Shown here: one piece after another, positions 31,507-63,555 of the stretch
Layout of the letters: the number at the start of each line of letters is the position of its first letter
Position numbering within the stretch: position 1 is the stretch's first letter
Position numbers and translations under genes: made by a program
Source of the DNA: Diacronema lutheri
Taxonomy: Eukaryota; Haptophyta; Pavlovophyceae; Pavlovales; Pavlovaceae
Length of the DNA: 64,000 nt
Assembly: GCA_019448385.1 (NCBI GenBank)
Contig: JAGTXO010000003.1
Coordinates: forward strand, 1,643,799 to 1,707,798
Direction: 5' to 3'
The notes under the pieces: model-generated
What the model saw: only the letters and a program-made list of their open reading frames with translations
What the model was told of the DNA's origin: nothing
The model's database searches: none

Positions 31507-31540
<34 letters not shown>

Positions 31541-33411: not shown

Positions 33412-33468
<57 letters not shown>

Positions 33469-41525: not shown

Positions 41526-41691
41526 CGAGCGTCCGTGATCCGCACGGCGGTTGGAGCGGGCCGGCTGGTGCGGCGCGCTCGGCCACGGGTGGCGGCGTGC
41601 ACGGTCGTGCCGCGCGCGGCACGCGTCGCCAGCCGCGCGCGACCTGGGCAGAGCCCGCAAAGCGTCGACCGCTGCGCGGCTCGGCCGTGCG
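41526..41691. other. Convergent spacer between the proline-rich gene and the Fanzor gene
   Basis: Only 166 bp separate the two stop codons. If a Fanzor guide RNA (omega RNA) is encoded at the 3' end of the nuclease, as in TnpB systems, it would lie here or overlap the nuclease tail. I cannot recognise it. Confidence 0.3.
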
Positions 41692-44600
41692 TCAACGCCG
41701 GCCGCGCTTCGGCCCGCGCGCGCTGCCGCCGCCGGCACTGGCGCTGGCAGCTCCGCGGGCGGGGGTGCGGGCGCGAGAGCCGCCGCCGCCACCGCCGCCG
41801 CGCCCGCCGCCGTCGTCGCCACCGCCGTCGCCGCCGCCGCCTCCCCCGCCGTCATCGTCGTCGTCGCCGCCGCCGCCTCCGTCGCCGTCGCCGTCGCCGT
41901 CGCCCTCGCCGCCGCCGCCGTCGCCGCTGCCATCGTCGTCGTCGTCGTCGTCGCCCTCGTCGTCGCCCTCGTCGTCGCCGTCGCACTCGTCGTCGCAGTC
42001 GTCGCCCTCGCCGTGCACCATGCGCTCCTCACGCTCCCACACCTCGCCGCGCGCCCACCAGGCGAGCACGAGGGCAAAGCGCTCAGGCGTCGACGTGGTG
42101 TCGCGCCCGGCCGCGTGCGCCGCCATGTCGTGCACGTCGTAGAAGATGTTGCGCGCGGCGTTGTAGTCGCGGTGCACGGGCTTCTTGCCGCCGTTGCACG
42201 CCGGGCAGATGACGAGCGCGTGCACCGTGCGCGTGCCGCCCTTTGCCACGGGCAGGCGCGGGTTCTGCACGAGCTCCGCGCCGCAGCGCTGCAGCCTGCC
42301 GCCCTTGGCGAGCCGCGGCATCGAGCAGTGCATCGACGTGTACGGCTCGGGCACGAAGACGGCCGCGACGCCGCGCCGCCGCAGCTCGCGCAGCAGCCCC
42401 ACCTGGAAGGCGGGCGGCGCGCCCTTGGGCTGCGCGCCCTTGTGGTCGCGCAGCCACTTGCCCACGCACACGAGCAGCCGGTCGCGCGTCACGCCGTCGA
42501 CACAGTGCGCCGCGATGAGCGCCTCGGCGACGCGCGCCGCGTTGGACCGCCCGCCGCTGTCGCGCCGCCAGCGCTCCTTCCGGCGCGCCGGCGCGTCGTA
42601 CACGTGCTCGGCGGCGCGCTCGCGCACCCGCGCGCTCTCGCGGTGGAAGGCGATGTATTTGCCCGCGTCGAGCACCTTGGCGCTGTGCGCCTCGCCAAGC
42701 CGCGCCTCGTCCGCCTCCACGCTGAACTCCTCGCCGCGCCCGTCGGTGCGCACGCGCCGCCGCGCCGCGTTGGTCTTGGCCGTCTCGCGCGCAAAGCCCG
42801 CGGCGCGCGCGCGCGCGCGCTGCGTGAACTGCCGCCAGACGGCCGCCCGCCCGACGTGCGCAGAGTAGGTGGTGATGTTGCCCATGTTCGGGTCGGCCGC
42901 GACGACGACCGCCGCCTCGACGTCGATCGCCCGCCGCAGCTCGGAGCCGAGCGCGACGGCGATGCGCCCGTCCGGCCGGCGCCAGCGGTGCAGGACGCCC
43001 GAGCCGCCGGCCGGCGCCTGCGCCTTCGGCACGAGGACGGTCCCGACGGCGTGCACGGCGACGCCATCTGTCACCACCGACTTGACGGGCTGCCGGCCCG
43101 GGAGCGGCACGCGCGGCAGCGGCGCGAGGCCAACCCACGAGCGCCGCGCGTGCCACGGCAGATCGGCCGGCGGCCGCTCGCGCCCGGCGTAGTCGAAGAC
43201 GCGGTTGGAGATGTCGAAGCGCGTCGCAAAGACCGCGTACCTGACGCGCACGTCCGACATCGGCGGGGTGTTGCCGTTTGTGCCTGTCCACTTGATCGGC
43301 TCGCCATCGTGGTCGCGCAGGTCCAGCGCCTTGAGCCGCGCGCGCAGCTCCTTGCGCTCGTCATCCGAAAGCGTCACCCAGATGGCGCTCGCGGCGAGGC
43401 GCACGTTGCGCGGCACCTGCGCGCAGCGCGCGGCGCGCGAGCGCGCGGGCGCGTGACCAACCTGGCCGCGGGGCGGCGCGCACGGCGGCGGCGCGCGCGC
43501 TTGGGCGCTCGGCGGCGGCAGCGGCAGCCACGCCTCGCGCGCACATTGTGCGTGCGCAGCGGCGCCACATTGTACCGCGGCGGCCGTCCGGTCAGCTGCG
43601 TGTGGATGTGCGCGAGCCGGCAGAGCAGCGCCTGCCCCTCGGCCACGTGCTGCAGGGTGCGGATCTGCACGAGGAAGTAGCGCGTCGTGTGCCGGTCGTA
43701 GTTCCACCTTTTCGTGGGCGTGCACTTGTAGTCGATCTTGTGGAGGACCATGTCGGGCAGGTGGCGGTCGAGCGCGGCGGGGCAGCCGACGCGCGCGCCC
43801 TCCACGTCGCCGCGCAGCAGCCGCTCGCACAGCTCGCGCACGCGCGCGTTTCGCTGCATCTCGGGCAGCGCGACGAGCGCCTCGTCGCGCTCGACTGCCG
43901 CGCGGACGACGTCGCGGAGCAGCCCGTTCACGACGCGCGATGGGTGCATCAGGCACGCGGTGGACACCTGCGTCGCCTCCGCCTCGAGGATCTCCGTGAG
44001 GCCCACCGCGCAGACGGGCTGGACGCCCTCGGCCATCTCGCCGACGGCGCGCGCCGTCGCCGCCTTGGTCTGCGCGGCGGCTTGCTCGGCGGGCTTGCCT
44101 CGCGGCGCTGCACCGTACGTGCTCTCGTCCTTGTGCCAGCCGATGGCCGAGAAGATCGCACGGACGGATCCCTTGTCCATCGTGGTCGACGTGTGCACGC
44201 TGGTCGACGGGCCGCCCGACGCCGCGCCGACGGCCTGCGCGCTCGCCACCGCAGCCTCGTCGCGCACCACCTTGTTGATGACGCGGTACGCCTGTGTCGT
44301 GAGCCTGTGCACGGCCGCCGCGATGCGCCGCAGCTCCTTCCGCGCACCGGGCTGCGCCGTCACCGCCTGCGGCCCCGCGTTGAGCGTCGAGCGCTTGACC
44401 ACGAAGCCCGGGAGCACGCTGCCGCGCGTGCGCGCCGTCGCGCCGCCGGCGGCGCGCGCGCTCGGCGCAGCGGGCTCGTCCACGCGCGCGCGCTCGACGC
44501 CGCGCGCGCGGGGAACGCTCGGCGCGCGCGCGCCCGCGGCGTCGCGCGCGCTCGCGGCGGCACCCGCCGCGGCGCGCTTGCCCGCGGCGCCCGACTCGCC

Positions 44601-47600
44601 GTGCGCGCGAAGCGGCGCCGACGCCAATGCCGACGCCGCGCCCGCGCCGCCGCTGCCGCTGCCCGATCCGCCCGCGCGCCGCTTCTGCTCGTCGCGCGTC
44701 TTGCGGAACTGGGCGACGAGGTCGCTGCTCACGTTGGCCTCAGGCTCCCACGTGTCGGCGCTCTCGTCGTAGCCCCGCCACCTGATCCGGAACTGGAACG
44801 TCAACTTCTTGCCCGCCTTGCGGCGCTCGTCGACGACCGCCTCGACCTCGTACGTGCGCGCCTCCTCGTCGACGCTCGCGCCCGCCGCGCTCGCGCCCGT
44901 GTCCGGCCACCCAGCGACCGTGCCGCCCAGCCTCTCGGCGGCCGCGCGCAGCTGCCGCTCGCGCTGGGCGGCCGCGGCGCCTCGCGCGACCAGCGCGGGC
45001 AGCATGCCCGCGCCGCCCGCGAGGCCGTGCGCGCCGACGCTGGCGGTCATCAGCGCGTCGAGGCACGCGAACGTTGCGAGCGCACACGCGCCATCGTCGC
45101 CGCCGCGCGGCTGCGAGCGCACGACGGGCGATGGCCGCGGCTCCCCCTCGGCCGCGAGCAGCGGCCAGATCGCACTGGCCAGCGCGACGGCATGCGCGCC
45201 GACCGCGACGGCCACGTCCGCGTCGAGCGGCGCAAAGTCGTAGCGCACGAGCGCGGCCGGGCGCGAGTCGTCCGTCGGCCGGTCGGCGACGAGCAGCCCG
45301 ACCGGGCGCGGCGGCTCGCCGGACGGCGCGGCGACGGGCACGCAGAGGAGCACGACGAGCAGGCGCGGCGTGCCGCCGAGCAGCGCGCGCGCGGCATCCG
45401 CCCCGTCGGCTCCGCCGCGCGCGGCCGCGGCGAGCAGCTCGGCCGCGCGCGTCGGGCCCAGCGCCGTGCGCGCGTCCTTGCGCGCGCGTGCGCGGGCCGT
45501 GTACGCGGCGCAGGCGTCGTCGAGCACCGCCGCGCTGGGCGCGGTGCCAGTCGTCGCCCACGCGCGCAGCGCGTCGCGCACCCGCGTGACGATCGCCTGG
45601 TCGACCGCCGCCTCGCCGGCAGCGTGCGCCGGCGCGCACGCCGGCGGTGCGGCGGCAGGCGCGAGCGCGGGCGCGCCGTCGGCGCCGTCAACGCCGACGG
45701 CGCCGTCGGCGCGCCGCCACGCGAGCTTCGCCTCGATCTGCTGCCGGACGGCGTGGCAGTGCCGGTCGATGCCGCGCGCGTCGTCGAGCGCGGCCAGCGC
45801 GTCCTCAGCGGCGGGACGGCCGCTCGCGTCCGCGACGGCCTGCAGGCAGAGCAGCGCGGCCGCACGCGCGTTGCACGCGCTCTGCGGCTCGGGCGCGAGC
45901 GCGAGCTCGAGCTCGAGCGGCGACGCGCCTCGCGCCGCGGCGATCGCGTCCATCAGCACGTCCAACCGCTGCACCAGCGCCCTGTGCGCGTCGCGCGGCG
46001 CGCCCGTCGACGGCGCGCGCGAGCGCGTCGCCAGGAGCCCGAGCGCGCGCGCCGGCGCGCCCGCCGGCGTGTGCAGCACGAGCAGCGCCGCGCCCGCCAA
46101 GCTCGCGTTGCGCGTGACGAGCGCGAAGATGCGCGTCGCCTCGTGCGCGCCCACCGACGCCCAGATCGCAGCGCGATCGGCGTCCGTCTGCGCGTCGCAC
46201 AGGTCGCGCACGTCGTCCGGCGCGAGCAGCGCGCCGCCGCCGGCGGAGCGCGCGACGATCGCCCGCGCCTCCGCCACGAAGACGGCCTGCGGCAGGTCGG
46301 CGTGGCGCGCGTCGACGATGGCGCGCGTCGCGTGCACGCCGAGCTCCACGCCGCGGTAGAAGGCGCGCGCGTTGGCCGCGCGCGCGTGCGCCGGCCGTCC
46401 GTCCGCGTTGCGCCTCGCGCGCGCCTGCTTGCTCGTGCGCGCGAGGCCGTCGCGTGGCGGTGGCGGCAGCGTGGCGAGGAAGCGCGCGGCGGGCGGCGGC
46501 GCGCGCACGCCGCGCTGCCGCCGTGCGATGGCCGCGAGCCGCCGGCCCGCCGCGCTGCCGCCCGCGCCGACGTGCTGCCAGCGGTTGAGCGCCGCCGGTG
46601 GCGGCGGCGGCGGCGGCGCGGCGGCGGGCGGCGGCGCGACGGCGGGCGGCGGCGCGGCGGCGGGCGGCGGCGCGGCGGTGGGCGGCGGCGCGGCGGCGGG
46701 CGGCAGCGGCGGCGGCGCGGCGGCGACGGCAGCACCAGTCGGCTTGTCCGCCCACGCACCCGAGACGCTGTCCCAGGCCTTGCCCGGTGGCGCGCGCCCA
46801 CGCGGCCGCGGGTGGCGGGCTCGAGCGGCGGGGGGCGGGCGGCCGGCGCGCCAGTCGAAGACAGGTGCAACCGTGGCGGCAGGCGCCGAGTGCAGCGCGT
46901 CGGTCACAGAGCGCGTGGTGCGCGCGGCGACCGTGGCGCGCATGGCGGGCGGGCGGTGAGCAGCGCCCGCCGGCGCGCCGGCGGGCGCGGCAGCCGGCGC
47001 GCCGGCGGGCGCGGCCGCCTCGAGCCCGGCGGAGGCGCCGCGCTTGCGCTTGCGCGTACCGCCGCGCGTGCGCCTGCGCGCGCGCCCGCCGCGCGCCCGT
47101 GCGGCCTGCGCGTCGCCAGCCGCGTCGCCGGCCGCGTCGCCGCGCCGCACGTAGACGACCGCGAACGCCTCCTCGCCGGTCCCGTCGACGCCGCCGCGCG
47201 CGCGGCGTAGGACCGACCGCCACTGCAGCCGCCGCGCGCGGCCGGGCTCGCACGCAAACCAGCGCCCACCGCGCCTGACGACGGCCACAAAGTCGTCGTC
47301 GCGCCGCCCGCGCCGGCGCGTGCGCAGCAGCACGCACTGCACGTCGAGCCAGCCCTCGTGCCAGTCGGCCGTGCTGGGGGCGACGCGAATCGACTGCGGG
47401 AGCTCGACGCCAAAGCCGGCGAGGCGCACGATGTGCGCGACGATGACGCTCGAAATGGCGGGGGCGCTCGACGGGTCGTCCGCTGCAGCGAGCACCGTCT
47501 CGCCCCAGTGCTCACGCGTGACGCAATCCGCGTCCTCGACGTGCACGTGCGCCACGCTCGCGCCGAGCTGGTGCAGCAACGCGCAGATGTCGGCGTCGAC

Positions 47601-50600
47601 CGTCCTCTCCTCCTCGGCCGCCTCGGCCGTGCCGCGGGCGGCGGCGTCGCCCGCCGGCTGCCCGAGGTACGCGATCGCCCGCTCGACGGCCGCGCGCTCC
47701 GCACGCGCTGCGCTGGCGATCGCCGCATTGCCGACGGGCGCGCGCAGCGCCGCGATCGCGTCTTGCAACGCCGTCGCGTCGCCCGTCGCCGCCGCCGCCG
47801 TCACCGCCGCCGCGCTCGCGGTGCCGTGCGCGACGGCGTGCAGCGCGGCGGCGCGCGCGGCGGGGATGCGCCCGTCCAGCGCGAGCACGAGCGGCGGCCC
47901 GGCCGGCGTCTGCTGCCGCCGGTGCCGCCGGCTCGCAGCCGGGTGGTCGGCGCGCGCGCGCTCGAGCCGCGCGCGCCGCTCGACGACGCGCGCCCAGAAG
48001 GCCTGCACCCTCGGCTGCGCGAATGCAAGCCAGCCGGCGCCGCGCGTCACGACGTGCACGACGATCCGGTCCTCGTGCCTGAGGTACTGCACGTAGAGCG
48101 CTTTGCTCACGCCGAGGACGTGCATGCCGAGCTGCAGCTGATCGCGGTGCGGCTGCGGCGGCCCGTCCTCGTGCGCCGTGGCGCCCGCCTTGGTGAGCGT
48201 CTTCACCTCGACGAGGACCTGCTCGTTGTTTTCGGGGAGGATGGCGAGCCCGTCCGGCGAGAAGGCGAACGGCGCGCTCTTGTCGTGCGGGTCCGCACGC
48301 ACCATCGGCAGGTTGCACACGACGGTGATGCCGTACGCGGCCGCCAGCTTGCGCAGCGCGACGGCCTCGCCGAGGATGCCCGCGGTCGTCGCCTTGGTCC
48401 GCACCTCGCGCCGCCGCCGGTGCACGTACTCGTCGGTGAGCGTCTCGTGCGCGACGCCGGCGTTGTCGTTCACGACGTCGCCAACCTTGCTGCCCGTGAC
48501 CTCCTCCCATCGCTCGTCGTGCCAGCGCGGGCTGCGCTGCGCGGGCGCGCCCGCGCCGACGGCGTCGAGCACGCGGCGCAGCGCTGTGCCGTCGGGCGCA
48601 GCAGGCACGCGCGCGCGGTCCTGGGCCTCGCGAGCGTCGAGGACGCGGCCCGTAGTGGAATCTTGGGGTAGGTCGAGCTTGCTCGCCTCGCCGTAGCGGC
48701 TCTCCAGCTGGCGCGGTGCGTCGGCAGGGCCGCCGTCCGTGCGCGCACCCGACGCGCCCGCCAGTGCACGCGGCGCAGCGTCCGAGGCGCCCGCCGCGCC
48801 CGCGCCGCCGCCAATCGCGCCAGCGCACGCGCGCGCCGCGACCTGCGGACGGCCAGCCGCAGGGACCTCGTCCGCTCGGCCGGCCGCTGCGTCGGCCGTC
48901 CGCTTGGCCACCTCGCGCACGTCTCCGAGCGCGAGCGTGGCTGGCGCCGTCCAGCTCCCGTTGCGTTTGTCCCAACATTTGAGCAGCCCGCCAAGGAAGG
49001 GCGTGCCCGTCGGGCGGTCCTCGGGCACCTCCGCCAGGATCGCGTCGACGCGCAGCGCGGCCGCCACATCGCAGAACGCGCGCGCGGCGCGCGCCATCCG
49101 CTCGGCGCGCGCGCCGCCGTCGTCCGCCGCGCGGCGGATGGCGTGGCTCACGTGCGCGACGCGGAGCGAGACGACGGCGTGCGCCGGCGCGTCGGCGCCC
49201 GTGCCGAGCGTGTGCCGCCGGATGGCCAGCTGCCCATCGCCCATGCGCGGCGGCAGCGACGCGCACGCCGCGACGGTCGTCGTGCCGGCCGCGCTGTCGC
49301 ACAGCCAGCTCGCCTCGCCGCCGCCCGCAAACTCAAAGGTCGCGAAGCCCTCGCGGCCGAAAAGCGCGACGAAGTGGTCGAGCACCGCCTTGTTGATCGC
49401 GCGCGCCGCCGGCCGCGTCGATGCGCCGCGGGCAGCGCCACCCGCCGCGCCGCGCGCATCGCCGCACGTCGCAGGGCAGGTGCAGCCGGACGCGCGCACG
49501 CCGTCCGACCGCGTCCGCGGCAGCTCGAGCTCGCGCACCTTGGGGCAGAACCAGAGCGGGTTGGACGCCTCGAGGCACAGCACGACGAGCCGCCCGTCCG
49601 TGCCGGCCAGCGCGCGCGCGTCGCGCAGCAGCTCGACGGCGAGCTCGGACGTCGCCGCGTGCACCGCCGGCTCGCCCGTCTCGCGGTCGGGCGGGAAGAG
49701 GCCGCCGCCGACGAGCGGGCTGGGGCAGCGGCCGAGCATCACGAGAAGCGGCGGCGGCGGCGTCTGCGGCGCCTGCTGCCCGACCGCAGCCGCCGTCAGC
49801 CCGGCCAGGTCGGAGCTCGTGCGGAGGGCCTTGAGCGCGACGCGCGAGCCGGTGCCCGCCTGCTCGGAAAACGTGGCGAGCATGGCGCACGTGCTCGCCC
49901 TCGCGCCGCACTGCCAGCTGACGCGCGCGAGGAGGCCTTCCAGCGTGTCGTTTTCGCGCGGCCGCGTGACCGCGTCGAGCGCCGCCGGGCCGAGCTGGAG
50001 GCTGCCGGGCGTGACGCACAGCACCGCCTCGTGGTAGGCGCGCAGCAGCTCCCTCGGCAGCTGCTCGGCGGGCGTCGCCGCCTGCCCGCCCACCCACCGT
50101 GCACCGTGGCCGCCGTCGCCCGCGCCCGCGAGCCGCACCGCCGGCCCGCCCGTGATCGCCGAGGTCGGCGGCGTGCCGAGCGCGTCGACGAGCGCGCGCA
50201 CGGGCGCGACACGCCTGCGCGCAGCGTCCGCGCCGACGGCGAGCGCGGCGATCTGAGCGCCGTCCCATACGCGCTCCCTCGCGTCGTCCCGCGCGGCCGC
50301 CGGCGCGGCGCCCGGCCGCGCGCCGGGCGGCACCGCGCACGCCGCCGCGACGACCTCCGCGCGCGCGCCGGCGGCGTCGGGCGCGTGCAGCTGCGCGATC
50401 GCGCCAAAGAGCGCGGCGGCCGAGCGGTAGCGGCCGTGCGCCGCGACGAGCGCGTAGAGCACGCGCAGCGCGGCCACGCCCGCCTGGTCGGGCGCGTCGT
50501 CAGCGATTTGCTCGACCTCCCACGTGCGCGTGGGCGGCGGGCTGCCGTCGGCCGGGTCCGGACGCAGCGCCCACGCGCGCTCGACGATCGCGTTGAACAC

Positions 50601-52238
50601 GTCGCGCGCGGCGCCCTCGTCAAACTCGGCGGCGCCCGCCGCGTGCGCGCACCACCCGTGCACGCGCGACGTGGGCGCGTCCACGGCGCGCTGCACGACG
50701 AGCACCGCCGGCCGGTCGACGCAGCCGAGGCTCACCGCCGCGTGCTTGCCCTCGAGCAGCGCCGCCGCCGCAGCCTCGACCAAGGCGTCATCAGGCGCGT
50801 CGCCGACGACGACGGCACAGCCGTCGCCGTACTCGGCCTGCATCGCGGCGACGCACGACGCGACAAAGTCGCCGCCCGCGGCCGCCGCGTGTCGCGCCGC
50901 CAGCATCCGGCGCGCGATGGCAAGCCAGACGTACTCGGCCGGCGCGCGCGCGGCGCGCGCGCGAGGCGCGCCGGCCGCGCCGCGTGCGCCCGCGCGTGCG
51001 CCTCCAGCGGCCGCAACGGCCGAGGCGGCTGGAGCGGCGGTGAGCGTGCGCCGCGCGCGCTTCGCCGGCCGCGTGATGGGCGATGCACCCGCCATCGCAC
51101 CGCCCGCAGCAGCCGGTGCGGCCGCCACAGCGCCCGCCGCAACGCCACTCGTCACGACGCCCGTGGCGGGCGGCGCGGCGGCGGACGTGGCCGCCTCGAC
51201 GGGCGTCGCGCAACTACCGCCAGCGGTCGCGGACGCGCCCGGCGACGCGTCGGCGAGGAGGTGGCGCAGCACGCCGCGCGCGAGCGCGACTCGCACGGCG
51301 AGCGTCAGCGCGCTCAGGCGGTCGGAAGGCGAGGCGTCGCGCTCGGCGTCGGCGGACGTGGCGGCAGCAGGCGGGGCGGCGGGCGGCACGGCGGCGGGCT
51401 GGGCGGCCGCCGGCGCAACCTCGTCGGCCTTGGCCAGCCAGACGAGCCCGGCGACTGCGAGCACGACGCTGTACGCGCCGACATCGTCACCCGCAACGCG
51501 CGCCAGCCGGGCGTGGGCGTCGGCCTCGGACACGGCGACGTGGAAGAGCACGTCGTCGCGGGCAGCTTGCTCGGCAAACTGACGCAGCTGCTTGGCCATC
51601 GTCACGCCGGCGACGCACGCCTCGCCCGCCTCTGCCTCGACCTGCTCGTCCTGGCCGATGGCGGACGCGCCGGCCTCGGCGCCAGCGTCGAGTGTCCGGC
51701 GGCGCTCGAGGGCGAAGCCACGCACACAGACGCGCTGGAGGCCGCCGAGCGCGCCCGCCTTCTCGTGCAGCGCGCACGACAGCTCGACCACCGAGTCCAC
51801 GCGCCTCGCGGCGGCGCCCCCCCGCTCGCCGCGCGTGGCCGCGCGCACGACGAACACCGTGAATTGCGCGCGCTTCGCCGCGCGCGCCGACGCGCACGCG
51901 TGCTTCAGGAGCCGGCAAAGCGCGGGCCTTTGCGCCGCTGCGCCCCGCGTGCACAGCAGCAGTTGGCCGCGCTCGTCGCCCAGCTCCTGCTCGACGGCGG
52001 CCTCGAGCGCGTCGTCCGTCAAATCGCCGTGCTCCGTCGAGGCGAGCGCGCGCGCAGCCGCGAGCGCCAGCTCGCCTGCGCCCGCGCGCCGCCGGCGGCG
52101 CGCACCGGCGGGCGCGTGCGGCGCCGACGCGTGTGACGACGCCGCCGCGTCCGCGCGCGCACACGCGGCGCGCAACGCCTCACGCGCCGAGGCGGCCGCG
52201 CGCGCCCTGGGCGCGAGCTTCAAGAACGTGCGCGCGGC

Positions 52239-52311
<73 letters not shown>

Positions 52312-55300
52312 TCGCCCGCGTCGCCGGCCGGCGGCGGCGGTGGCGGCGGTGGCGGCGCGGCCACGGCGGCGGCAGCAGCGGCGGCGGCGGCGGTGGCGGC
52401 GGCGGCGGCGCCCAGCGCGGGCGGCGGCGGCGTGGCGGCGGCGGTGGCGGCGGCGGTGACGCCAGCGGCGGCCTTGGCGCCGCGCGTCTGCGGCGGCGTT
52501 TCGGCGCGATCGGGGCTGCCCCCGCCACGCACCGCGCTCGTGACCGCGCAGACGCCGCCCGGCGCACGATCGCTGGCCGCGCCGGTCAGCGCGACGCGGA
52601 GGCGCTCGCCGACAGCGTACATGTCCGCCACGCTGAACGTGCGCGGCGCGGACGAGCAGCCCGCCGCGGCGAGCGCGTCGTTGAGCGCGCCCACTATCGC
52701 GAGGCCGCACGTCGCGCCACGCTGCGCCGCCTCGTTGAGCAGCAGCGCGCGGCGCACGCGCGAAATGTCGAGACCCGCCGCGTGCAGCGTGGCAGTTATC
52801 GCCTTGGCGAGCATGAGCGCCTGCCTGCAGGGCGACGCGAGCGTGTCGACGAGCACCGCGTCGTAGCGATGCTCGCCCGCGCGCGCGACGCGCACAAGGC
52901 GCAACGCGGTGAAATGGCCGGAGGCGAGCTGCGCGCCGTCGTCACCGCCCGCGCCGCCGCGCTCGTCCGACGGGCTCCACACGCCGATGACAGCCTGCGT
53001 TGTCGCCTCGCTGCGCAGGCGGTGCAGCAGCGCGGCGCGCTCGGCGTCGTCCTGAAACACCGCGGGTTGCGCGGCGAGCGGCACGTGGCAGACATGCCCG
53101 CCGCCGGCCTGCCCGTGCACGCGCAGCACGACCTCGCAGCACGCGTCGACGGTTGAGGCGAGCATGTCGCCGCTGGCGATGCGCTCCACCTCTGCCTGCG
53201 GGAGGCCGGCGCTCGCGGCGGCGGCGGCCAGCCGGCGCGCAGCCGCGTCGCCCGCCCACGCAAGCAGCGCCGAGTTGGCGGGTTGGAGGGGAAGCTCAAG
53301 GGCGGCTGGTTCGGTGGCGGTAGCCTCGTTGGCAACGGGCACGTTGGCGGTGCGCGCGTTGGCGGCGGGCGCGGCGGCGATGGCTGGTGGGGCGGAAGAC
53401 GCGCCCGCGGCGGCGGGCGCGGACGCGGCAGCGGCAGCGGCTAGTGGGGCGGGGAAAACGCCGTCGGTGGCAGGCGCGGAGGCGAATGCAGGAGCAACTA
53501 GTGGGGCGGGAAAATCGGCGGCAGGCGCGAAGGCGGATGCAGCAGCGGCTAGTGCGGCGGGGAAAACACCGTCGGCGGCAGGCGCGAAGGCGGATGCAGG
53601 AGCGCCCAGCGGGGCGCAGAAAACACCGTCGGCGGCAGGCGCGAAGGCGACAGCAGCAGCGGCCAGTGGAGCGGAGGCGCAGGGCCACGCGCGCGCCAGC
53701 CGTGCAAGCCCAAGCCGCGCGCGAGCGACGCACGCGCCGATGGCCGAGGCGGCGGCGCAGGCCACGACGTGGCCTGGCACCGGTGTGGCCAGCCGCTCGC
53801 GGGTGTGCACGTCGAGCCGCGCCCCACGCCAAGAGCGGCGGCGCGCTGAACGGAGGCGCGCGACCCCGATCGATCCGCCCGCGCACGCGCGCGCCGGCTC
53901 AGTGTGGCCAACGCGCGCCGCTATGCAAGGCGCGCGCGCGATAACGGCGGCTGTCGGCCGTGGCGTGCGCGTGGCGGCGCCGCGGCGACGGGCGCGGCAC
54001 ACGAGCCGCTCGGGCGCGCCGCCGCCGCGCGGCACGATGTCGAGCAGCACGGTCACGCCGCGCGCGCGCGCGACCGCCGTGCACGCGAGCCGCACGGGCA
54101 GCGGCGGCCCGTCCGGGCGCGCGAGCGCCGCCACCTCGGCGTCGGTGAGGCTGTGCAGCTCGCGGCGCGCGCGCGCGAACGCGGCGATGTCCGCGCGCAG
54201 CTCCGCGTCCGTGCCGAGCGCGGCACGCGCGTGCACGGGGAGCGACGCGCGCAGCGCGTGGAGCACGCCGCCGCGCGCGCCGCGCGGCGCCGGCGCGCGC
54301 TCGCGCTCAGCGCGCGCGGCGCGCGTGAGCTCGCGCACCGCGCGCGCGAGATTGCGCCGCGCGGCCGCGACGGGAGGGCTAGGTGCGCGCGCGCGCCGGT
54401 TGTAGCGCGGCCGCGCCGAGTCGAGGGGCGGCGGACGCGGTGCGTACGCCGCGGCGCGGCCCGCGCGCCAAAAGGCCGGCGGCGGGCGCAGCTCCGTCGC
54501 GTCGACCGCGGCCGCGAGCGCGCCGAGCGCGGCGTCGCTGTCGCCCGCCGCGTCGGCCGCGTCGACGAGCACGAAGAGCGCGCCGAGCGCGCGCGACGCG
54601 GCCGCCTGCGCGGCGGTGGGGCGGGCGCAGGCAGCGACGCATGCGGCCGCCATGCCGCGCGCCGCGGCGAACGCCGGTGACGTGACGGCCGCGCCGATGG
54701 CAACGGCGGCGGCGGCGACGGTGGAGGCGGCAGCGCCGGCGATGGAGGTGGCAGCGGCGGCGGCGCTTGCCATCGCGCGGCGCGCGAGACGCGAGGCGCC
54801 ACCGACCGCCGCCGCCGCAGCGCGCGCTGCGCGCGCGCCGGTGGCGCGCATCGTCGCCGCGCCAGGCGCCGCCGCGCCGACGCCGCCGGCGCCCGCGCCG
54901 TCGCCGCTCTCGGCCGTGCAGGGCTCCGATGGCGAACCCGGCGTGCGCTGGCGCGTGATGCGCGCGCCGAGGCGCGCGCTCCGCGCCGCGCGGCCGGCGA
55001 CGTCGAGGAAGCGCCGTGCGCGCGCCGCGCGCAGGCCACGCGCGCGCGGCGGCGCACCGACAGGCGCCGAGCGCCGCGGCGCGCACGCCGGCGCGTCGCT
55101 GTCGGGTTGCGCAGCGCGCGCGCGGGAACTCGGCGCGGCGTGTGCGGGCGGCGGGCGCGCGCCCGCGCGGCGCAGAGGCGCGAGGCGCCGGCCGCAGACG
55201 AGGCGTGTGCGCAACCAGGACGGCGAGGGCCGCAGGGCGCCGTCGACGTCGCGCATCGGCGGGCCGCGAGCCCGCCGCGCAGCCGTGCGGCGCGCGCGAG

Positions 55301-58300
55301 GCGCTCGGCGGCGCGCGCGCCGCACGGCGCGCGCGGCGGCGCGCACGCCAGCGACGGCTGCGGCCACGCCGCGCGCCAACACGGCCGCGGCGTGCGCCAT
55401 CGCACCGAGCACGGCGCGTGGCGCGCCGAGCAAGCGCAGCAAGCGCGACGCCGTCGCGCGCGCCGGCGCACCGTGTGCAGGGGCCTCGCCAGCGCCAGCA
55501 CCGACGCCGCCATCGCCGCAGCCGCAGGTGGCGTCGCCGCCGCCGCAGGCGTCGCGACGGACGCCGCCGCCGCCGAAACAACCGCCGCACACGTCGCCGC
55601 CGACGTTGCCACCCCAGCCGCCGTTGCGTGCGCAGGTGGCTGCGGCGCGTGCGTGCGGGAGGCGTGCCGTGCGGCGCGCATCACACGGGCTGCGCGACGC
55701 GAGCGACGCCGCCGGGGTCCCCGCTGCGCCAGGCGCGCCGTGCGCGCCAGCCTCGCCGGCCTCGCCGGCGCGCGGTCGCGCGCTCGCCTCGACGTGGCCG
55801 CCTCCGCCGCCATCGCCGCCGTCGAACCGGGCGGCGGAGGGCTGCCGCTCGAACCGCTCGTCGGCGTCGGCCGCCACCGCCGCCTCGCGCTCCGCCGCCG
55901 CGGCGGCCGCACGGCGCGCGTGGCGGAGCGCGCGGCCGCCGTCCGCTGCGCGGCGTGGCGGCGCGGGCGCGGGCTTCGGCGCGCGCGGCCCCTCGGCGCG
56001 CTCGCGGAGCACGGCGAGCGGCGTGCCCGTGGCGACGCTCGTGCAGACGCGCCGCAAGGCGGCGCTTACGCACGCGTGGACGACGCGCGCCGTCCGCTTG
56101 TCGGCGGCGCGCGCGGCGCGGCGCGCGGCCTTGGCGGCGGCCTTTTTGGCGCGCCTCTGCTCCGCCTGCTCCGACAGCGCGCGCGCCTGGCGCTCGGCTG
56201 CGAGCGCGTCCTCGGGCGAAACGGTCGGCCTCGGCGGCCGCGCGCGCGCGCTGCGACGCTGCGCGCTGCGGCGGTCGGACGGCGGCTGCCGCGGCGGCGA
56301 GGACGGCGAGCGCGAGCTCGGCGTGGGCGACCAATCGCCGCTGACGGTTGCGAGCGGCGCAAACGGGTTGTCGTCCCCGCGACCCGCGGCGTGCGACAGT
56401 GCACGCGGCGTCGGGCGCCGGCCGACCGCTGGCGGGCCCCACTCGGACGGCGGCTCCGAGGGCGAGCGCGCCGTCGGCGCCGCGCGTTGCGCGGCCGGCG
56501 GCGCCTCCCGGTCCAGCGCCGCCTGCTCTCTCGCCGCGGCCTGCTCGTCACCCTCCGGCACGCCACGCGGCGCGAGCACCGCGGTGGCGCAGCGCGTCGC
56601 GTTGAGCAACGCCGCCTCCATCTGCCGCACGCTGGCCTTGGCGCACGCCACACCCTGTCTCGCCCGGCGCAGCGCCTCGTGCGCGCGGCGCACATCCGCG
56701 TCGGCATCTTCGCGCATGCCAAAGTGCGCCTGTTGCAGCCGCAGGTCCGCAGGGCGCCCCTGCGCGCGAGGGGCACGGGCGCGGCGGCGCGCAGGTGACG
56801 GAGCTGGCGCGCCGTTCTGCGCTGCGCGCACGCCAATCGACGGGCGCGCGCGCGGCGGGGCGCGCGCGCGCGCGCGCGCGCGCGCTGCCTACCCAGCCGC
56901 CGGCCGGCTCGCGCGAGCGCGCCAGCTGCTCCGCCGCCTCGGCGTCGAGCACGCGCTGCTGCGCCTCCTCCTCGCCCAGTGCAGCGAGGTGCAGCCGGCG
57001 GGCTGCCTTGCGGCAGTTGCCCTCCGCCTTGCCCACGGCCTTGCGCGCCGCGTCGACGGGGTCGTCGTTGGCTCTGGCGCGCCTGCGCTTGCCCTTGTCG
57101 GCGGGCGGCGGCTTGGCGCGCTGCAGCGTGCCGAGCGCGTCGTCGGCTCCGCGCGCGGCCGCCCGCGGGCGGCGGGCCCCAAAAAGCGCACCGGTCGCCG
57201 TGCGCGCCGCGCAAGCAACGACCAGCGCTGACATGCCGGCGAAGACCGCACCGCCCAGCGCCACGGTTGCCACGATGCGCAGCGTCCCGTGCGCAAGCTG
57301 CGCTGCCTCCGCCGCTTTGGCGGCCTCGCGCGCGCGCGCATCGGCGGCTCTCATCTCGTGCAGCAGCCCGGCCGCGCCGCTCGCGCCGTCGCGGCCGCGC
57401 GCGAGCTCGCACAGCACCGCCGCCGCGCGCCGCGTGGGCTCGCGCGCGAGCAGCTGCGCGCCGCCGTCGGGGCGCAGCTTCTCAACGAACTCGACAAACG
57501 TCGCGTCGCGCCAGAGGGACATGCGGAAGGCCCTGTGCACCGCCCCCTCCTGCTCGCGCATCCGCCGTGCCGCCCGCCTGCCGTCGCGCGCGTGCGCGTG
57601 CGCGGCCGCGTCGAATCCCGCGACGCCGCGCTGCGCGTCGCGCGCGGCCGACGACGGCGCCGCCGCGCTGCCCGCCAAGGGCGCCGCAGCGGCGACGCGC
57701 GCGTGCGGAGCGACGGGATCGCCGGCGGCCGGCGGCTCGGCGCGCTGCGGCGTGCCGTTTGCTCCGCGCGCGGCCGTCCCGGGGGAGATGGCCGCGATGG
57801 CGCCGCCAGCCGCGCCGCGCGCCAGCCACGCGCATAGGCTGCCGACGAGCTCGCCGAGACCCCCGACGGTCGCCGCGGCGGCGAGTGCGCCGGGCTTGCC
57901 GGCCGACAGCGGCTCGCGAGCGTCGTCGTCGCAGCCGCCGGCACCCGTCTTGGCGAGTGCGTCGCGCTCGCCCTCGACGCCCGCCACGACCGCCGCCCCT
58001 CCGTCGTCCGCCGCGCCGGCCGCGCGCGCGGCCGGGCGCAGAGGAGGCGTGCCGGTGCAGCCGTCGCCGCTCGTCTTCGCCGTTTCCTCCACTTTGGTCA
58101 CTTCGTCGCCACCTGCGCCATCTCCGACGCCGGGGCCCTTGGTCACGCTTGCCGCCATGCGCGCCGTGCCCGCCGGCCAGCCCGCCGACTGCTCGAGCGC
58201 GGCGGCGAGCGGCGCGACGCGCGTCGACTCGGGCGCGCTCTCGTCATCGGGCTCGAGCGCGTTGTGCAGGCGCGCGAGCGCGCGCTCGACGGCCGCGGCG

Positions 58301-60567
58301 CCACTGCCGGGGGCGCGGCTCGCCGCGCGCACCGCGCGCCGCCAGGCCGGCGCGAACATGAGCGCCGGCTCGAGCGCCGCGAGCGCGCGCGCCTCGCGCG
58401 CGTCGCTCGCGCCGAGGCGCGGCGGCACGCGCGCGGCTCCGCGCGGCGCGGTGCCTCGGAAGCGTGGGCTCAGCGTGTAGGCGAGGTGCTGCGGCACGCC
58501 GCGCGCCTCCGCGCGCGCGCGTCCGTCCTCGACCTCGCGCCGCGCCTTCGCGATCGCCGGCGTGGCGCGCGCGAGCCAGTCGGGGTCGGCGGGCAGGTGG
58601 ATCACGACGAGAATCGGCGCCCAGTCCAGCCGCGGGTTCTTGTGACGGTCGGGCACGACCCACACGAGCAGCACCGTGCCCTCCGCGCCGCACGCCGCCT
58701 CGTAGATCCTGGGCTGCGAGCGCCAATCGGGCCTGACGCGCAGCGCCCGCGCGTGGTCGATGGCGGCGGCGCGGTCGCCATTGAAGTGAACCGTCGTCAC
58801 CTCGCCGATGACGGACCGGCCGGACCGCCAGCAGAACACCGCGTCCGCCGACCCGCCGGCGATGGCCGCGAGCGATTCGGGCGCGGCGAGCCGCGGCAAG
58901 CCCTCGAAGGCGGCAAAGTCCTCGTGCGCATTGTACACGCCGCCCCAGCCGTCGTGCGCGTACGCGCGCGCGGCCGCTCGTACCGCGCGCGGCTGGTTCT
59001 CCACGCCCGACGTCATGTGCCATGTCGTCCCCGCGAAGCCGGGCTCGCCCAGCTCGGCCCGCACGACGGTACCGTACCCCGCGCCCTGCGTCGGGGCGGC
59101 GAGGTGGTGCATGCCCGCGCCGGTCACGCCCTCCGTGCGCTGCCGCGTGACGATCGTGCCCGTCGCGTGCGCGAAAAGCGTGTCGACCACGGCGGGCGCG
59201 CGCCCGCTGTTCGCCCGTAGCCGCGCCCTGCCCGCTTTTAGCTGCTCGGGGTCCTTGGCGTCGTACACGCGCGCGTCCGCGTCGCCCTCATCAGGCGCAG
59301 TGTAGACGCAGCGGCGTTCGAGCGGCGCCGAGCCACCGCCGTCCGCCGCCGCCGGCGAGGTTGGCGCCGCGCCCGCCGCCACCGCGCTCGTCGCCGCCGT
59401 GCCCGTCGCCACCGCCGCAGCCGCCGCGCCCGCGGGGTCGTCGTCCCCGTCCTCCGCGCCCTCCCCGTCGTCAGCGGTGGTGGCGTCGCCATCGTCCCCG
59501 TCGCCCTCGCCCCCGCCGAGGCTGCTGAATGGTCGGGGCCCCCACGCCGAGGCGGCGCGCCGCTGCGGCGCACGCGGCGGTGGCGCTCGCGACGGCGGCC
59601 TTGGCGCCGCCGCGCCGCGCGGCCTGGCCGCCGTCGACAGCGCGCGGCCTGCAGCGCCCGTGAGCGCGTCGAGCGCGGCCGTGCGTGCGATGCGGTCGTC
59701 GGGCGCGCGCAGCGCCGCCTCGACGGCCTGCAGCAGCCCGTCGGGCGCGGATCCGCCGACACTGGCATCGCACGCCTCGGCGAGCCGCGCGGCCTCGGCG
59801 AGCCGCGCGGCCTCGCGGGTGAACGGGCCGAAGCGCCTGGCGCGGTCGCCGAGCAGAGCGCCGATGGCGGCGCGGAGCGTGCGCGCGCGGGTCTCCTCGT
59901 ACGCGGCCGTCGTGAGGCGCGCGAGGCGCGCGTCCAAAGCCTTCTTGATGTCGACAAGGACACTCGCGCGGCGGCCGTAGAGCGTCGATGCGCTCGCCAC
60001 GACCTCGGCCGCGACTGTTGCCGCGGCGAAGCAACACGCGGCCCCACTCTGCGGGGGCGCCTTGAAGGCATCGATGGGCGGCGCTGTTCTGCCGATGCGC
60101 TGCGCAAGCTTCTTGATGAGCACGCCGGCCGCCGTGGCGTACGCCGATTCGCCGTTGCCCAAGGTGCGCGAATCGGCGAGCAGGGCGAGCGCGGCGCCGG
60201 GCGGCGCGCCGCGCTGCGCGGGCGGCGCGAGGAGCAGGTACGCCGCCGTCCAGTGCACGAGGCCGCTGGACGCGCGGAGGCAGAGCGGTAGCACGACCAC
60301 GAGCACCTGCCCAAACCGGTCCGCATCCGCGCATGCTTTGCGCAGGTTGCGCAGCGCCACCTTGAGCGCATGCTGCGAGCACCCCGTGTCGCCCACCCTA
60401 ACCCTGCTCGTGCCGAAATCCGCGTAACGCAGCAGGGCGATGAGGCAAGTGGATGGGACCACGTGGGGGTGGGTATCTCCCGGCGACAGAATGGTGCTGA
60501 GGGCCAGCGAGAAACTGTCCGAGCCGCCCCGCCCGCCGGGCAAAGCGTCCTTCACGGAGTCCTCCAT
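41692..60567 (-). CDS. Giant multidomain protein ending in a Fanzor RNA-guided nuclease
   Basis: Exons 56893..60567, 43545..56759 and 41692..43416 (minus strand) join in phase 0 to 6,204 residues. Domains in order: Ulp1/C48-type protease (about 35 to 190, H105, D132, Q173, C178); low complexity; a hydrophobic helix near residue 1,120 followed by coiled coil; basic and Ala-rich regions with 19-residue repeats; a second C48-type protease (H2507, D2530, Q2571, C2576); degenerate relatives; a YqaJ-like nuclease (about 3,960 to 4,140); a chromodomain (about 5,190 to 5,245); and a Fanzor nuclease (about 5,350 to 6,060; D5805, E5987, D6047). The tail is acidic and Gly-rich, ending GPKRGRR. The central exon is one open frame of 4,405 codons, far beyond chance. 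It probably belongs to a large mobile element. The chain may be cut by its own proteases, or may really be more than one transcript. Confidence 0.75.
41900..43416 (-). other. Fanzor RuvC-type nuclease core
   Basis: RuvC-I is AAVVVAADPNMGNITTYSAH (Asp at 42892..42894). RuvC-II is VFVPEPYTSMHC (Glu at 42346..42348). RuvC-III is HRDYNAARNIF (Asp at 42166..42168). Between II and III, C-x13-C and CPAC form the split zinc-binding region. This order, the T-S after the RuvC-II Glu and the RD-x-NAARNI ending are hallmarks of TnpB and Fanzor. All three catalytic acids are present, so the nuclease may be active. The preceding exon supplies the N-terminal part, with KIDYKCTPTKRWNYDRHTTR just before the junction. 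Confidence 0.88.
43417..43544 (-). other. Intron inside the Fanzor domain
   Basis: Minus-strand donor CACAAT|GTGCGCGC, acceptor GCGCAG|GTGCCGCG, phase 0, 128 bp, with GTCAC in the second half. Both flanking frames run on as open frames beyond the junction. Fanzor-like sequence is seen only when they are joined. Confidence 0.75.
44700..44872 (-). other. Chromodomain in the giant protein
   Basis: The segment begins TYEVEAVVDERRKAGKK, continues FQFRIRWRGYDESADTWEPE and ends ANVSSDLVAQFRK. It keeps the aromatic positions that form a methyl-lysine cage (Y in TYEVE, W in RIRWRGY, and the WEPE turn). Chromodomains in integrating elements steer insertion toward marked chromatin. Confidence 0.9.
48008..48548 (-). 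other. YqaJ/lambda-exonuclease-like nuclease domain
   Basis: The order SPRWHDERWEEVTGSKVGDV, a G-x-x-x-E-A helix (GILGEAVALRKLA), FSPDGLAI (Asp), VLVEVKTL (E-x-K) and QLQLGMHVLGV is that of the YqaJ viral recombinase family in the PD-(D/E)XK superfamily. These enzymes resect DNA ends for single-strand annealing. All catalytic positions appear intact. Confidence 0.85.
52230..52313. repeat. Long (GGC)n tract encoding poly-Ala
   Basis: Almost uninterrupted GGC on the plus strand reads as a long alanine run in the giant minus-strand protein, followed by further broken GGC tracts to about 52,460. Confidence 0.9.
52600..53200 (-). other. Second Ulp1/C48-type cysteine protease domain
   Basis: SGHFTALRLVRV (H2507), DAVLVDTLAS (D2530) and NEAAQRGATCGLAIV (Q2571, C2576) follow the Ulp1 order His, Asp, Gln, Cys. 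The spacings of 23, 41 and 5 are close to those of yeast Ulp1 (17, 43, 6). Such proteases process SUMO-like proteins in cells and precursor proteins in viruses and large transposons. Confidence 0.75.
53440..53690 (-). repeat. 57-bp coding repeats in the giant gene
   Basis: About four units spaced mostly 57 bp apart (for example gcaggcgcgaaggcg at 53521, 53578 and 53635) encode degenerate 19-residue repeats such as AFAPAADGVFPAALAAAAS. Confidence 0.85.
56760..56892 (-). other. Probable intron of the giant gene, unusual donor
   Basis: A phase 0 junction TGG|GTAGGCAG to GCGCAG|GGGCGCCC of 133 bp would join the 1,225-codon first exon to the 4,405-codon exon and continue a coiled coil. Its GTAGG donor departs from the GTGCG seen in all other introns here. 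The exact borders are therefore uncertain, and the two open frames could belong to separate genes. A GTGCG donor nearby would give a frame mismatch. Confidence 0.5.
59998..60465 (-). other. First Ulp1/C48-type cysteine protease domain
   Basis: SGLVHWTAAYLLL (H105), LALLADSRT (D132) and APPQSGAACCFAAA (Q173, C178 or C179) follow the Ulp1 order. The spacings are 27, 41 and 5 or 6. The His-Trp pair is typical of C48 enzymes. It stands at the very N-terminus of the giant protein. Confidence 0.75.
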
Positions 60568-61900
60568 CTGCAGACTGTGGGCACGTCAGTGTCCGGATGG
60601 CGGCCCGGATGATACTTGGGAGAATTTACATGATGCCCTGGAGAATGCCCCGCTCTCCCACAACCAGGACCCGCCAGCGCGCCGAGCCTACTCGTTTGCC
60701 CGCGCCGCCTCTCTTTGCGCGCCCGAGCGCGGCCTCCGAGCGCGGCCAACGTCCTCCGGGGGCGTGCATCGTGGCTGCTCGGAGGGGCTGCGACGCGGCG
60801 AAAGCTCGCTGCGCGGCCGCAACGTGAGCGCGCGCGCGCGGCCGCGCGCCGGCCTGCGCTGCTCTGCACGGCCGCGCGCCGGCCTGCGCAGCCTCGTCGC
60901 GCAGCGTGAGCGCGAGCGCGCGCGAGGTGAGCTCGGCGGATGGGTGCGCGGCGGCGTTGGCGGCGGGTGCGGCGGCAGGCTGGGCGGCGGGTTTGGACGG
61001 AGAGTGTCGGGGAAGAACGGGGCGCATCCTGGCTGGGAGTTGGACGGCGCCCACCACGCGCTGGCGGATCCTGGTTGCCACCACCACCCCCCCCCCCCCC
61101 CCCGGAGACGAGGACCAGGGGCATGGCCGACTCGCTGCGCCGCACAGCGCGCGGCGCGCGGCATGCTGCGCGACCTCAAGCACATCCAGCCGCGCTCCGC
61201 CCACGCAACGCGCGCAATGCCGCGTTGCACTGCAGGTGTGCACGTGCGGCTCTCACGCGCACTGTGTTGCACGAACGGCATCACGCCACCGAGCTGCGTC
61301 CGGACCACGCGCCGCGCGCAGGCGACCACACAGGGGCGCGCCGCGCCGCGCGTGCGCGCCCTCGCAACCGTTGCAGCACGCTCTGCCTTGCACTGCGCCG
61401 AGCCGCCGCGCGCTGTGCGCGTGCATGCAGGGCGCACGCGTGCGACGAAGCGCGCGCGCGGCGAGGCGCGCGGGCGGCTCGCTGCGCGGGCGGCAACGCG
61501 CCCAGCTGCGCCCAGGCCAGGCGCGCGCCCGCGAGTGCCACCGGGACGCACTGCCCCCACCGGGGTCGCCGCGCGCTCTGTGTGTGCGCTCGCGCGCTGC
61601 GAGCGCGGCGGAACGTTCGTGCATGGCGCGAAGAGCGCGGCACCCGAAGACGGCTGCCCCGAGCCCGCGCCGGGTGGCAGCGAGCGGCGGCACCTCCTCG
61701 GCGAGCCCGCCCCGCGCCTTCCCCTCCACGTGGCGTTTTGAGGCAGACGGACACGCGCCCACACTGCGACTGGGCACGCTGCTCGAGGCAGACACGCACC
61801 CAACGCGCGCGCACCACGCGCCCGCGTCGGCGGGCCGGTGTGAACGAGCGAGAGCTCGGTGTCGCCAACGGGGGCACGGGCGCGACTTCGGTCCGCCTCT
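60568..61900. other. Region upstream of the giant gene, no intact gene
   Basis: The first few hundred bases should hold the promoter of the giant gene. Open frames are long on both strands because stops are rare in GC-rich DNA, but none shows consistent third-position bias or a recognisable domain. A 17-C tract lies at 61087..61103. Confidence 0.5.
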
Positions 61901-62471
61901 CGACGGACGCAGGCGACGCTGCCGGGAACTTCCCCGACGCCTGCACATCCAGGGCTTCGAGGTACAGAGCTGGGCAACAGTGCCGCTCGTCACCGATGAG
62001 GCGGCCAAGCTCGCTATCCTTGCTGCCCTCGGCTCCACCAAACAGCCGGGCGACCCAACGGTTCGTGATCGCCTGGCCGCCAGGTGCGAACCGCGCCCGT
62101 GCAAGCGCTTCACCCGCATTCTCCGCCCCGCTGCGGACGTCCGCCTGCCGGCCGCGAACACGGCCGGTGCGCGTTGCCGCCTGGCCCAACACGAAAACCC
62201 GCCCGCCCCCGAGGCCGCAGGTCCTACCTGCCCAAGCGCAGCCCAACGGCACGCAGACAGCCCGCCTTGGCAACCGACTCGTGCGCGAGCGCTCCGCCCT
62301 CCACAAGAGCCTGCCCCACGCCACCGCCGACGCGGAGCCAGCGCAGCCGACGCCCCTCCGCGACGCTCGCGCCGCAAGGCGCAAGGGCCCCGGCGAGACG
62401 GCGTCAACCAAGCCCGCCGCTGGCACAGCGCCGGCACCCGGAGCCCACCCCAAGCCCCCGCGCACGCCTCG

Positions 62472-62500
62472 CCCCCCCCCCCCCCCCCCCCCCCCCCCCC
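62472..62500. repeat. Poly-C tract, 29 nt
   Basis: An uninterrupted run of C. Such length in assembled sequence is unusual and prone to length error. Confidence 0.95.
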
Positions 62501-62903
62501 GATCGGCGGACCGATTGCGTTTTGGTGCGCCAGGCTCAATGCGCCATCGCAGTGGCGGGCCCGCAGACGCAGACGCTGACATGCCCAACGCTGGGCACTG
62601 AGGCCGCAGGCCGGCCCTCCTGGACCTGGCGGGCGAGCTGCCCGCGCAGCGGCCACGCGAGCCTCGCACTGACCGTGGCGGTCGCTGCCACCGTGATAGC
62701 TGCGGGTGCGGCGGCCTTGGCCCCAACCCCATCATCCGTCTTCATCCCCGCCCTGCTCGCGCTCGCGGCCTGCGTCGGCAATCCCTGCACCGGGATCCGC
62801 CCCGCGAAGTCCACACAAGACTTATCCGTGCTGCACGCCAGCCGCGCGCGCCGACGCGCGCCGCTCCCACACGCTCACCTCCGTTTCCGCGGGCGGCCCA
62901 ACG

Positions 62904-62971
62904 CCCCCCCCCCCCCCCCCCCCCCCTCCCCCCCCCCCCCCCCCCCCCCCCCCTCCCCCCCCCCCCCCCCC
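62904..62971. repeat. Poly-C tract, about 68 nt with two T
   Basis: The run of C is broken only by T at two positions. On the minus strand it is poly-G and could form G-quadruplexes. Read as codons it gives only polyproline with rare Ser. Confidence 0.95.
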
Positions 62972-63522
62972 GGCAGGCGGCCATCGAGCCGCATTAGCAC
63001 ACCCGCCCGGGGCCTCCCGCCGCACCCGCAGCGGCTCGGCGCCTTGAATCCTCCCGTCCCCCGGGGTGAGGCCTTCAACCCGGGCCCAGCGCGCTCCGAC
63101 TGCCTCACGCGCGCCAGCGCCAACCTCGGCGGCATGGTAGACCCCGAGCGAAAAGCCGCACTTCTCGCCGTCCTCGTCAGGCGCAAGTACGTTATCCTGC
63201 TCCTACTGCCGACGCGGCTCCCGCGCGCGCGGACTACTACGCCGGGCAGATCGCCGCAGACGCACGTGAGTGCACACGTGCGGACAAGGCGCACACGCTC
63301 GACGTCCAGTTAGCGCACGTGCACGTGCGCGCCACTGGTCACATTTGAGCGTCCGTGCTCGCCCACAGCGTCGCCATCCACAAGATGCGCGCTGGAGCCA
63401 TCCAAGCAGGGCTCTGCCTGCTCGGCTTCCGCAAGGCAATTTGGGCCGCGGACAGCGGACAGCGGACGGCGTGCGCGTGCGAGGTGCGAAAGGAGGAAGA
63501 AGGTAGGGAGAGTTGTGTGTGT

Positions 63523-63550
<28 letters not shown>
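63523..63550. repeat. Poly-G tract, 28 nt
   Basis: This is an uninterrupted run of G, in the orientation opposite to the poly-C tracts upstream. The sequence ccggagacgaggac follows at 63562 and also directly borders the poly-C tract near 61,102. Confidence 0.95.

Positions 63551-63555
<5 letters not shown>

Follow-up and report, generated by a model that had tools for sequence, protein, structure and literature searches.

A long minus-strand gene with a predicted Fanzor nuclease is part of a ~31-kb, high-copy transposable element in Diacronema lutheri

Introduction

One genomic stretch of the haptophyte alga Diacronema lutheri carries minus-strand open reading frames of unusual length, which an initial annotation had read as a single gene for a chain of 6,204 residues combining C48 proteases, a YqaJ-like exonuclease, a chromodomain, and a C-terminal Fanzor nuclease. 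That reading raises the question of whether these parts belong to one gene and one protein, and of what kind of locus houses them. We addressed both questions on the stretch at its full length of 64,000 nucleotides (hereafter, the window; positions refer to it unless a contig is named) and on its counterparts elsewhere in the genome. The published assembly of D. lutheri NIVA-4/92 is described as 43.503 Mb in 103 contigs, with a GC content of 73.25% and 22.9% repeats (PMC8379373).

Results

The long frame is real, and exonuclease, chromodomain, and Fanzor probably form one gene

Three minus-strand open frames cover the gene, namely, one of 1,345 aa (56548-60585), one of 4,504 aa, i.e., 4,504 codons (43374-56888), which holds the exonuclease, the chromodomain, and the presumed N-terminal half of the Fanzor, and one of 1,015 aa (41692-44739). 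The longest run expected by chance, as determined from 200 first-order Markov sequences, had a median of 739 and a maximum of 1,445 codons, and the other five frames contain 10 to 48 stops. The long minus-strand frame that had been proposed is thus real. Moreover, of 234 candidate copies of the exonuclease piece in the genome, 150 were scored, and in 88 of these the surrounding frame is open over at least 4,400 codons.

We tracked the coding frame by its third-position GC excess (codon periodicity), which follows one frame from 60.6 to ~57.0 kb, a second from 56.6 to 43.5 kb, and a third from 43.4 to 41.9 kb, thereby supporting short introns near 56.8 and 43.45 kb. More specifically, a first coding stretch with its ATG at 60567 (56892..60567, minus), for which no Pfam family was found at E ≤ 1, is followed by a frame change indicative of a short intron near 56.89-56.76 kb (minus). 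The second short intron lies within 43420..43520 (minus), where the frame switches between 43.54 and 43.42 kb; candidate GT and AG dinucleotides are present, and its exact splice points are putative. The last exon (41692..43419, minus) encodes the RuvC and zinc-finger half of the Fanzor. Periodicity spans the exonuclease, chromodomain, and Fanzor (53.3-41.9 kb) with brief lapses near 52.4-52.3, 51.1-51.0, 48.8-48.7, and 47.0-46.8 kb, and is absent at ~55.8-54.7 and 53.9-53.4 kb, which may be read-through introns or a gene boundary. Judging from frame and periodicity, the exonuclease, chromodomain, and Fanzor probably constitute one gene; this part of the one-chain reading stands, whereas the longer loss of periodicity upstream leaves the union of all upstream parts into a 6,204-residue chain unproven.

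As introns and spacers seldom contain stops at ~80% GC, the open frame could instead join two or more separate genes read through as one, e.g., a gene covering 60.6-54 kb followed by another that starts at 53.3 kb and encodes exonuclease, chromodomain, and Fanzor; the Fanzor might even be a gene by itself. We regard this arrangement as a serious contender, at somewhat less than even odds: the two upstream gaps in periodicity and the four brief lapses are in line with it, whereas the lapses between exonuclease and Fanzor are short, those near 52.4 and 47.0 kb coincide with low-complexity stretches of 85-91% GC, and the long frame is kept open in the copies counted above.

Profile searches support the Fanzor, exonuclease, and chromodomain but not the C48 proteases

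Profile searches of the big frames identified a Pfam TNB domain in the last exon (27.4 bits versus a cut-off of 26.3; E = 3.7e-6), in which the catalytic residues D616, E798, and D858 of the 1,015-aa frame are encoded at about 42892, 42346, and 42166. The exon also contains the long Fanzor/TnpB motif as defined in PMC3627910, D-X(125,275)-[TS][TS]XX-C4 zinc finger-X(5,50)-RD, with a D-to-TS distance of 185, TS-MH-C, four cysteines, and HRD. A glutamate lies six residues before the zinc finger (E-PYTSMH-C), a position reported to separate Fanzor from TnpB (PMC10711439). Like SpuFz1, a Fanzor1 (PMC10432273), the protein has D-x-N at the first catalytic motif, this glutamate, and RD at the end; unlike SpuFz1, it apparently forms the C-terminus of a much larger polypeptide. 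It departs from the usual Fanzor in two respects, namely, a first zinc knuckle that reads C-x13-C and a first RuvC motif that reads DPN. Fanzors usually have DPG at the latter, a triplet described as near exclusive to them; however, since the metal ligands of SpuFz1 include D383 and N385 (PMC10432273), DPN does not exclude a Fanzor. Further matches were weak, i.e., NCBIfam TnpB (0.085), PHROG 506 (0.26), and, in a PDB search with the Fanzor exon, Cas12f1 (0.42). Together, the TNB domain, the long motif, and the D-E-D triad in place bear out the C-terminal Fanzor of the initial annotation. Its presumed N-terminal half (43511..44381, minus) was assigned by position; it lies in the frame of the long exon, has strong periodicity, and returned no profile match.

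The exonuclease domain (47973..48548, minus) matched the RecE-like family PHROG 434 at 6.7e-15. Pfam YqaJ scored 22.2 bits on the isolated piece, just above its cut-off of 22, and 15 bits, below the cut-off, on the whole frame; TIGR03033 (3.1e-5) was likewise below its own cut-off, and a PDB search with the piece gave no relevant match. Genome-wide, Pfam YqaJ was found at one place among 150 scored of 203 candidates, the domain sitting near the family cut-off. The chromodomain (44700..44852, minus) matched Pfam PF00385 at 4e-13 on the piece (49.5 bits versus a cut-off of 25.1) and 6.7e-12 on the whole frame. Profiles, together with frame and periodicity, support the fusion of these two domains, YqaJ/RecE exonuclease and chromodomain, with the Fanzor; from the predicted domains, they would be expected to confer resection, chromatin reading, and RNA-guided cutting, respectively. 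By eye, residues 440-780 of the 1,345-aa frame (~58250-59270) resemble a second, degenerate restriction-nuclease-like stretch (GSADAV...GEVTT), for which there was no profile support.

In contrast, the C48 proteases were not supported. No C48 match was obtained at E ≤ 10 in ten pieces searched against Pfam, the only other name being DUF7525 at 0.92, and the best candidate had no C48 match in the PDB. Homology among the protease-like pieces was rejected as well, as their best matches were shuffled decoys, to which the pieces were no less similar than to one another. A single-sequence model of the piece at 52569..53441 (minus) reached a pLDDT of 39.8 and was unusable, as was the structure prediction of P0004 (pLDDT 35.9); P0004 and P0006 (source label "ena"; contigs of 3.7 and 2.4 kb) were not used as gene models. 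Because an H-D-Q-C order recalling C48 is visible by eye at 52569..53441, this piece may be a far-diverged protease; the protease part lacks statistical support, as does the self-processing that had been suggested.

The gene is the largest of a ~31-kb element present in about 200 near-identical copies

The gene is the largest one of a transposable element of ~31 kb with about 200 near-identical copies. Internal copies on contigs C9, C30, and C71 align with the window at ~99% and stop at 41285-41286, so that the element occupies 41286..64000 (the gene being on the minus strand). The window thereby holds about three quarters of the element and ends where contig C4 ends, at position 7,764 of the C30 copy, comparison with which indicates that the element continues for ~7.8 kb past the contig end. 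Thus, the gene that had been taken for a single one is real but is not a singular host gene; its membership in a high-copy element had been missed, and it changes the likely purpose of its domains.

Searches with the end sequences (≤2 mismatches) yielded 215 matches (101 + 114) for one end and 203 (99 + 104) for the other, with 0 for reversed controls. Likewise, there were at least 98 genomic matches scored of 420 candidates for the Fanzor exon, at least 150 of 234 for the exonuclease piece, and at least 96 of 236 for the N-terminal helicase piece (see below), with identities of 98-100% among the matches listed. Elements fall into size classes of ~31.0, 29.1, 26.3, and 21.5 kb with both ends in common, and full copies measure ~31,049 bases on C9 and 30,483 on C30. 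For C1-C48, the matches listed include 97 exact near ends; for 61 of them, the listed far ends include a partner on the same strand within 45 kb, whereas the other 36 are unpaired among the matches listed, owing to contig ends, truncation, or a far end beyond those matches. The mean paired length of 27.8 kb, when extrapolated to 203 copies, corresponds to 13% of the genome. Four copies differ by ~3 nonsynonymous changes to 1 synonymous change, a ratio that is uninformative on selection because the copies are so young, and the window and C1 copies are identical in the exon compared.

Near the far end, the C1 and C9 copies differ from C30 in that ~330 bases (30,048-30,379 of the C30 copy) occur inverted and in repeated form. 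Outside the element, the plus strand of the window carries frames with WD40 repeats (30325-33852; 1.5e-21) and an AAA ATPase (7517-10588; 4.2e-36).

Element ends are precise and insertion sites unrelated

The near, Fanzor-side terminus (41286..41332) includes an imperfect 18-base palindrome at 41315-41332, and 18-base palindromes occur near both element ends. The terminus reads GTATATATGTTC in the window copy and GTATAGATGGTC in other copies. We read 12 copies at both ends (ten, plus those on C30 and C9), and all 12 have GTATAGATGGTC, ten of them having been chosen by exact match to the near end; in 12 internal copies from the Fanzor search with the inner 28 bases, the near end is GTATAG, versus GTATATATG in the window copy. 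The far end, whose last 13 bases were outside the selection, is STATATAS in 11 of the 12 copies and CTCTATAG in one. There are no perfect terminal inverted repeats, and inspection by eye revealed no asymmetric ones.

The flanks of all 12 copies are unrelated. When the boundaries are kept fixed, the two sides agree in no more than two flanking bases; when a shift of the boundary by eight is allowed, the TATA(G) present at both ends yields a 4-7 base repeat, which may represent a TATA(G) target duplication. Judged by eye, the copy at C4:9,299 is bordered on its far side by a small repeat, and TATAG is missing from the corresponding place in the other copies of that repeat. In 10 of the 12 copies, the base after the far end is an A or a T (27% expected; P = 7e-5), a test made after the pattern had been noticed. 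With its many copies, precise ends, and unrelated sites, the sequence is a transposable element.

The Fanzor adjoins the element end, from which a guide RNA would extend into the flanking DNA. This 3' end, the putative source of a guide RNA, folds only slightly better than shuffles (z = -1.78), and Rfam returned no match for the window.

A small repeat starting approximately with ATACTAACGRCGC occurs near several insertion points; it may be a different mobile family or mark a site at which insertion is favored. Contigs C1, C5, C6, C10, C12, C26, and C29 start at the Fanzor-side end or only a few bases from it, probably reflecting assembly breaks at an unresolved repeat. We considered and rejected a telomere-targeted element: TTAGGG arrays are found at the ends of other contigs (C15 left, C29 right, and C30 left, among the first 100 of 212 places listed), C32 and C49 begin at the opposite element end, and assembly breaks are the simpler reading.

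A Helitron-type helicase accompanies the gene, and no moving enzyme was recognized

In the C30 copy, 5' of the giant gene and outside the window, the element encodes a PIF1 helicase (1.8e-24; 2B domain, 5.3e-13) and a UCH-type protease (4.3e-8). The helicase is closest to Helraiser in the PDB (7lcc; 91.7 bits), the next PIF1 chain scoring 28.7, and a homologue search returned the query itself plus one weak PIF1. In C30 and C1, the two copies inspected, the halves of the helicase are encoded in different frames; the change between the Walker A half and the second half falls at ~8,200-8,350 of the piece C30:270001-280000, and is the same in C1. Spacing relative to Helraiser leaves no room for an intron at this point. 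All 96 scored copies match query residues 1-437, including the off-frame tail, 65 of them at the top score. As the split is present in both copies and the tail in all those scored, the helicase may be broken; the split may alternatively reflect programmed frameshifting or a shared assembly error, or the gene may have been broken before the burst and helped in trans. The 21.5-kb copies at C5:257,856, C14:231,745, and C17:199,861 share both ends and are absent among the helicase matches listed, a hint of movement in trans.

Searches of the three big frames against Pfam, PHROGs, and NCBIfam revealed no transposase, Rep, integrase, or recombinase except for the weak TnpB-type names, nor was any recognized in 52 ORFs of the element's 5' third. 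Helitron Rep (PF14214) was not found in the element, and the C30 copy has no acceptable Y2-type motif. The sole Rep-type match in the genome (C63:35501-36400; 8.3e-23) lies in a 326-aa frame, and this locus has no extended DNA similarity to the element. A homologue search with the Fanzor exon returned a near-identical protein only, and residues 2650-4460 of the 4,504-aa frame had no homologue among 1,387 candidates.

Discussion

Fanzors in algal Helitron2 elements (PMC3627910), YqaJ in ISL2EU (PMC4482050), and Helitrons of up to 39 kb (PMC6431247) are each known separately; among the titles and abstract openings searched, a scope that mostly leaves out the subscription literature, no element combining these parts is described. 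Among the closest counterparts are the Fanzor1-bearing Helitron2 elements CRe-1, 2, and 3 of Chlamydomonas reinhardtii (Bao and Jurka 2013, PMC3627910), which likewise place a Fanzor in a mobile element of an alga, have hairpin-forming sequences near both ends, and include full-length insertions without clear duplication. The D. lutheri element differs in its ~31-kb length, in its exonuclease, chromodomain, helicase, and UCH protease, in having no RepHel, and in its ends; hairpins at both ends together with asymmetric terminal inverted repeats characterize Helitron2 in that source, and the latter were not seen by eye here. ISL2EU (PMC4482050) shares a YqaJ exonuclease within a DNA transposon, but is ~4.8 kb long, occurs in animals, and has a DDE transposase and an AT duplication, neither of which was recognized in our element. 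With Helitrons such as Helraiser the element shares the Pif1-type helicase, end palindromes, and lack of a clear duplication, and on these grounds it works most like a Helitron; membership fails on the missing Rep and on ends other than 5'-TC/CTRR-3', and the helicase lies in two frames. The element fits no known superfamily fully, and is best read as a new giant Fanzor transposon, perhaps derived from a Helitron.

The best explanation of the locus as a whole, to which we assign a probability of about 0.5, is that the window holds most of a ~31-kb D. lutheri transposable element encoding a giant Fanzor protein and moving in a Helitron-like manner. Its largest gene, or two genes read through, would specify a giant protein whose C-terminal half comprises the exonuclease, chromodomain, and Fanzor. 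The multiple copies, shared ends, and domain content are direct observations, from which we infer all enzymatic steps. Movement would follow a Helitron-like route through single-stranded DNA that relies on the element's Pif1-type helicase, and the nicking enzyme would be either unrecognized or provided in trans. With a guide RNA derived from the 3' end of the element plus flank, the Fanzor would cut the empty donor or allelic site; the fused exonuclease would resect that break, the chromodomain would hold the complex on chromatin, and recombination would then copy the element back, while the UCH-type protease may counter ubiquitin-dependent silencing. In bacteria, TnpB has been proposed to cleave the site left empty by the transposon, which is then brought back by repair, and fusing a Fanzor with a nuclease for resection would couple cleavage to the opening step of homologous repair. 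Against the Helitron-like route stand the missing Rep, ends that are neither TC/CTRR nor clear asymmetric repeats, the possibly broken helicase, the modest 3' fold, and the possible TATA(G) target duplication.

Other routes of movement account for parts of these observations. If the unassigned parts of the giant protein concealed a DDE transposase or recombinase with TATA(G)-like targets, the Fanzor and helicase would be passengers, and the 4-7 base repeat obtained by sliding the boundary, the post hoc excess of A or T after the far end, and the DDE transposase and AT duplications of the YqaJ-carrying ISL2EU (PMC4482050) would find a common setting; we consider this unlikely, yet worth keeping in view, as no such family appeared in the big frames or the 5' third, perfect terminal inverted repeats are missing, and the other copies of the far-flank repeat at C4:9,299 lack TATAG. 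Eukaryotic Pif1 serves break-induced replication, and the Fanzor itself might drive movement, its guided cut, the fused exonuclease, and the helicase installing or restoring copies by that process with no transposase at all. The lack of a recognized transposase and the frame shared by exonuclease and RNA-guided nuclease fit such a break-and-copy route; however, the helicase is Helitron-like and possibly broken, and homing to a matching target cannot account for insertion at new locations, given that the copies differ in their flanks. We consider this route quite improbable. About as doubtful is the broader proposal of a new class of giant element without a conventional transposase, in which one protein, through its Fanzor cut, its fused RecE-type exonuclease, and a chromodomain tether, would install or restore 31-kb copies with the aid of a Helitron-type helicase and would thereby have filled about an eighth of the host genome. 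Least likely by a wide margin is an integrated large DNA virus or its remnant: according to PMC3627910, Fanzors also occur in large DNA viruses, including those of Emiliania huxleyi, but three viral-contig scans, which find close relatives only, yielded no relative, no capsid, polymerase, or packaging family was recognized, and about 200 copies have fixed ends.

The D. lutheri genome has a reported repeat content of 22.9% (PMC8379373), much of which may be due to this element family. As the copies are many and young and the alga is cultured, movement, guide RNA, and Fanzor action are testable. If the fusion holds, selection would have produced a single protein that contains an RNA-guided nuclease, a nuclease for resection, and a domain for reading chromatin, and such a protein would bear directly on what Fanzors do for the transposons that carry them.
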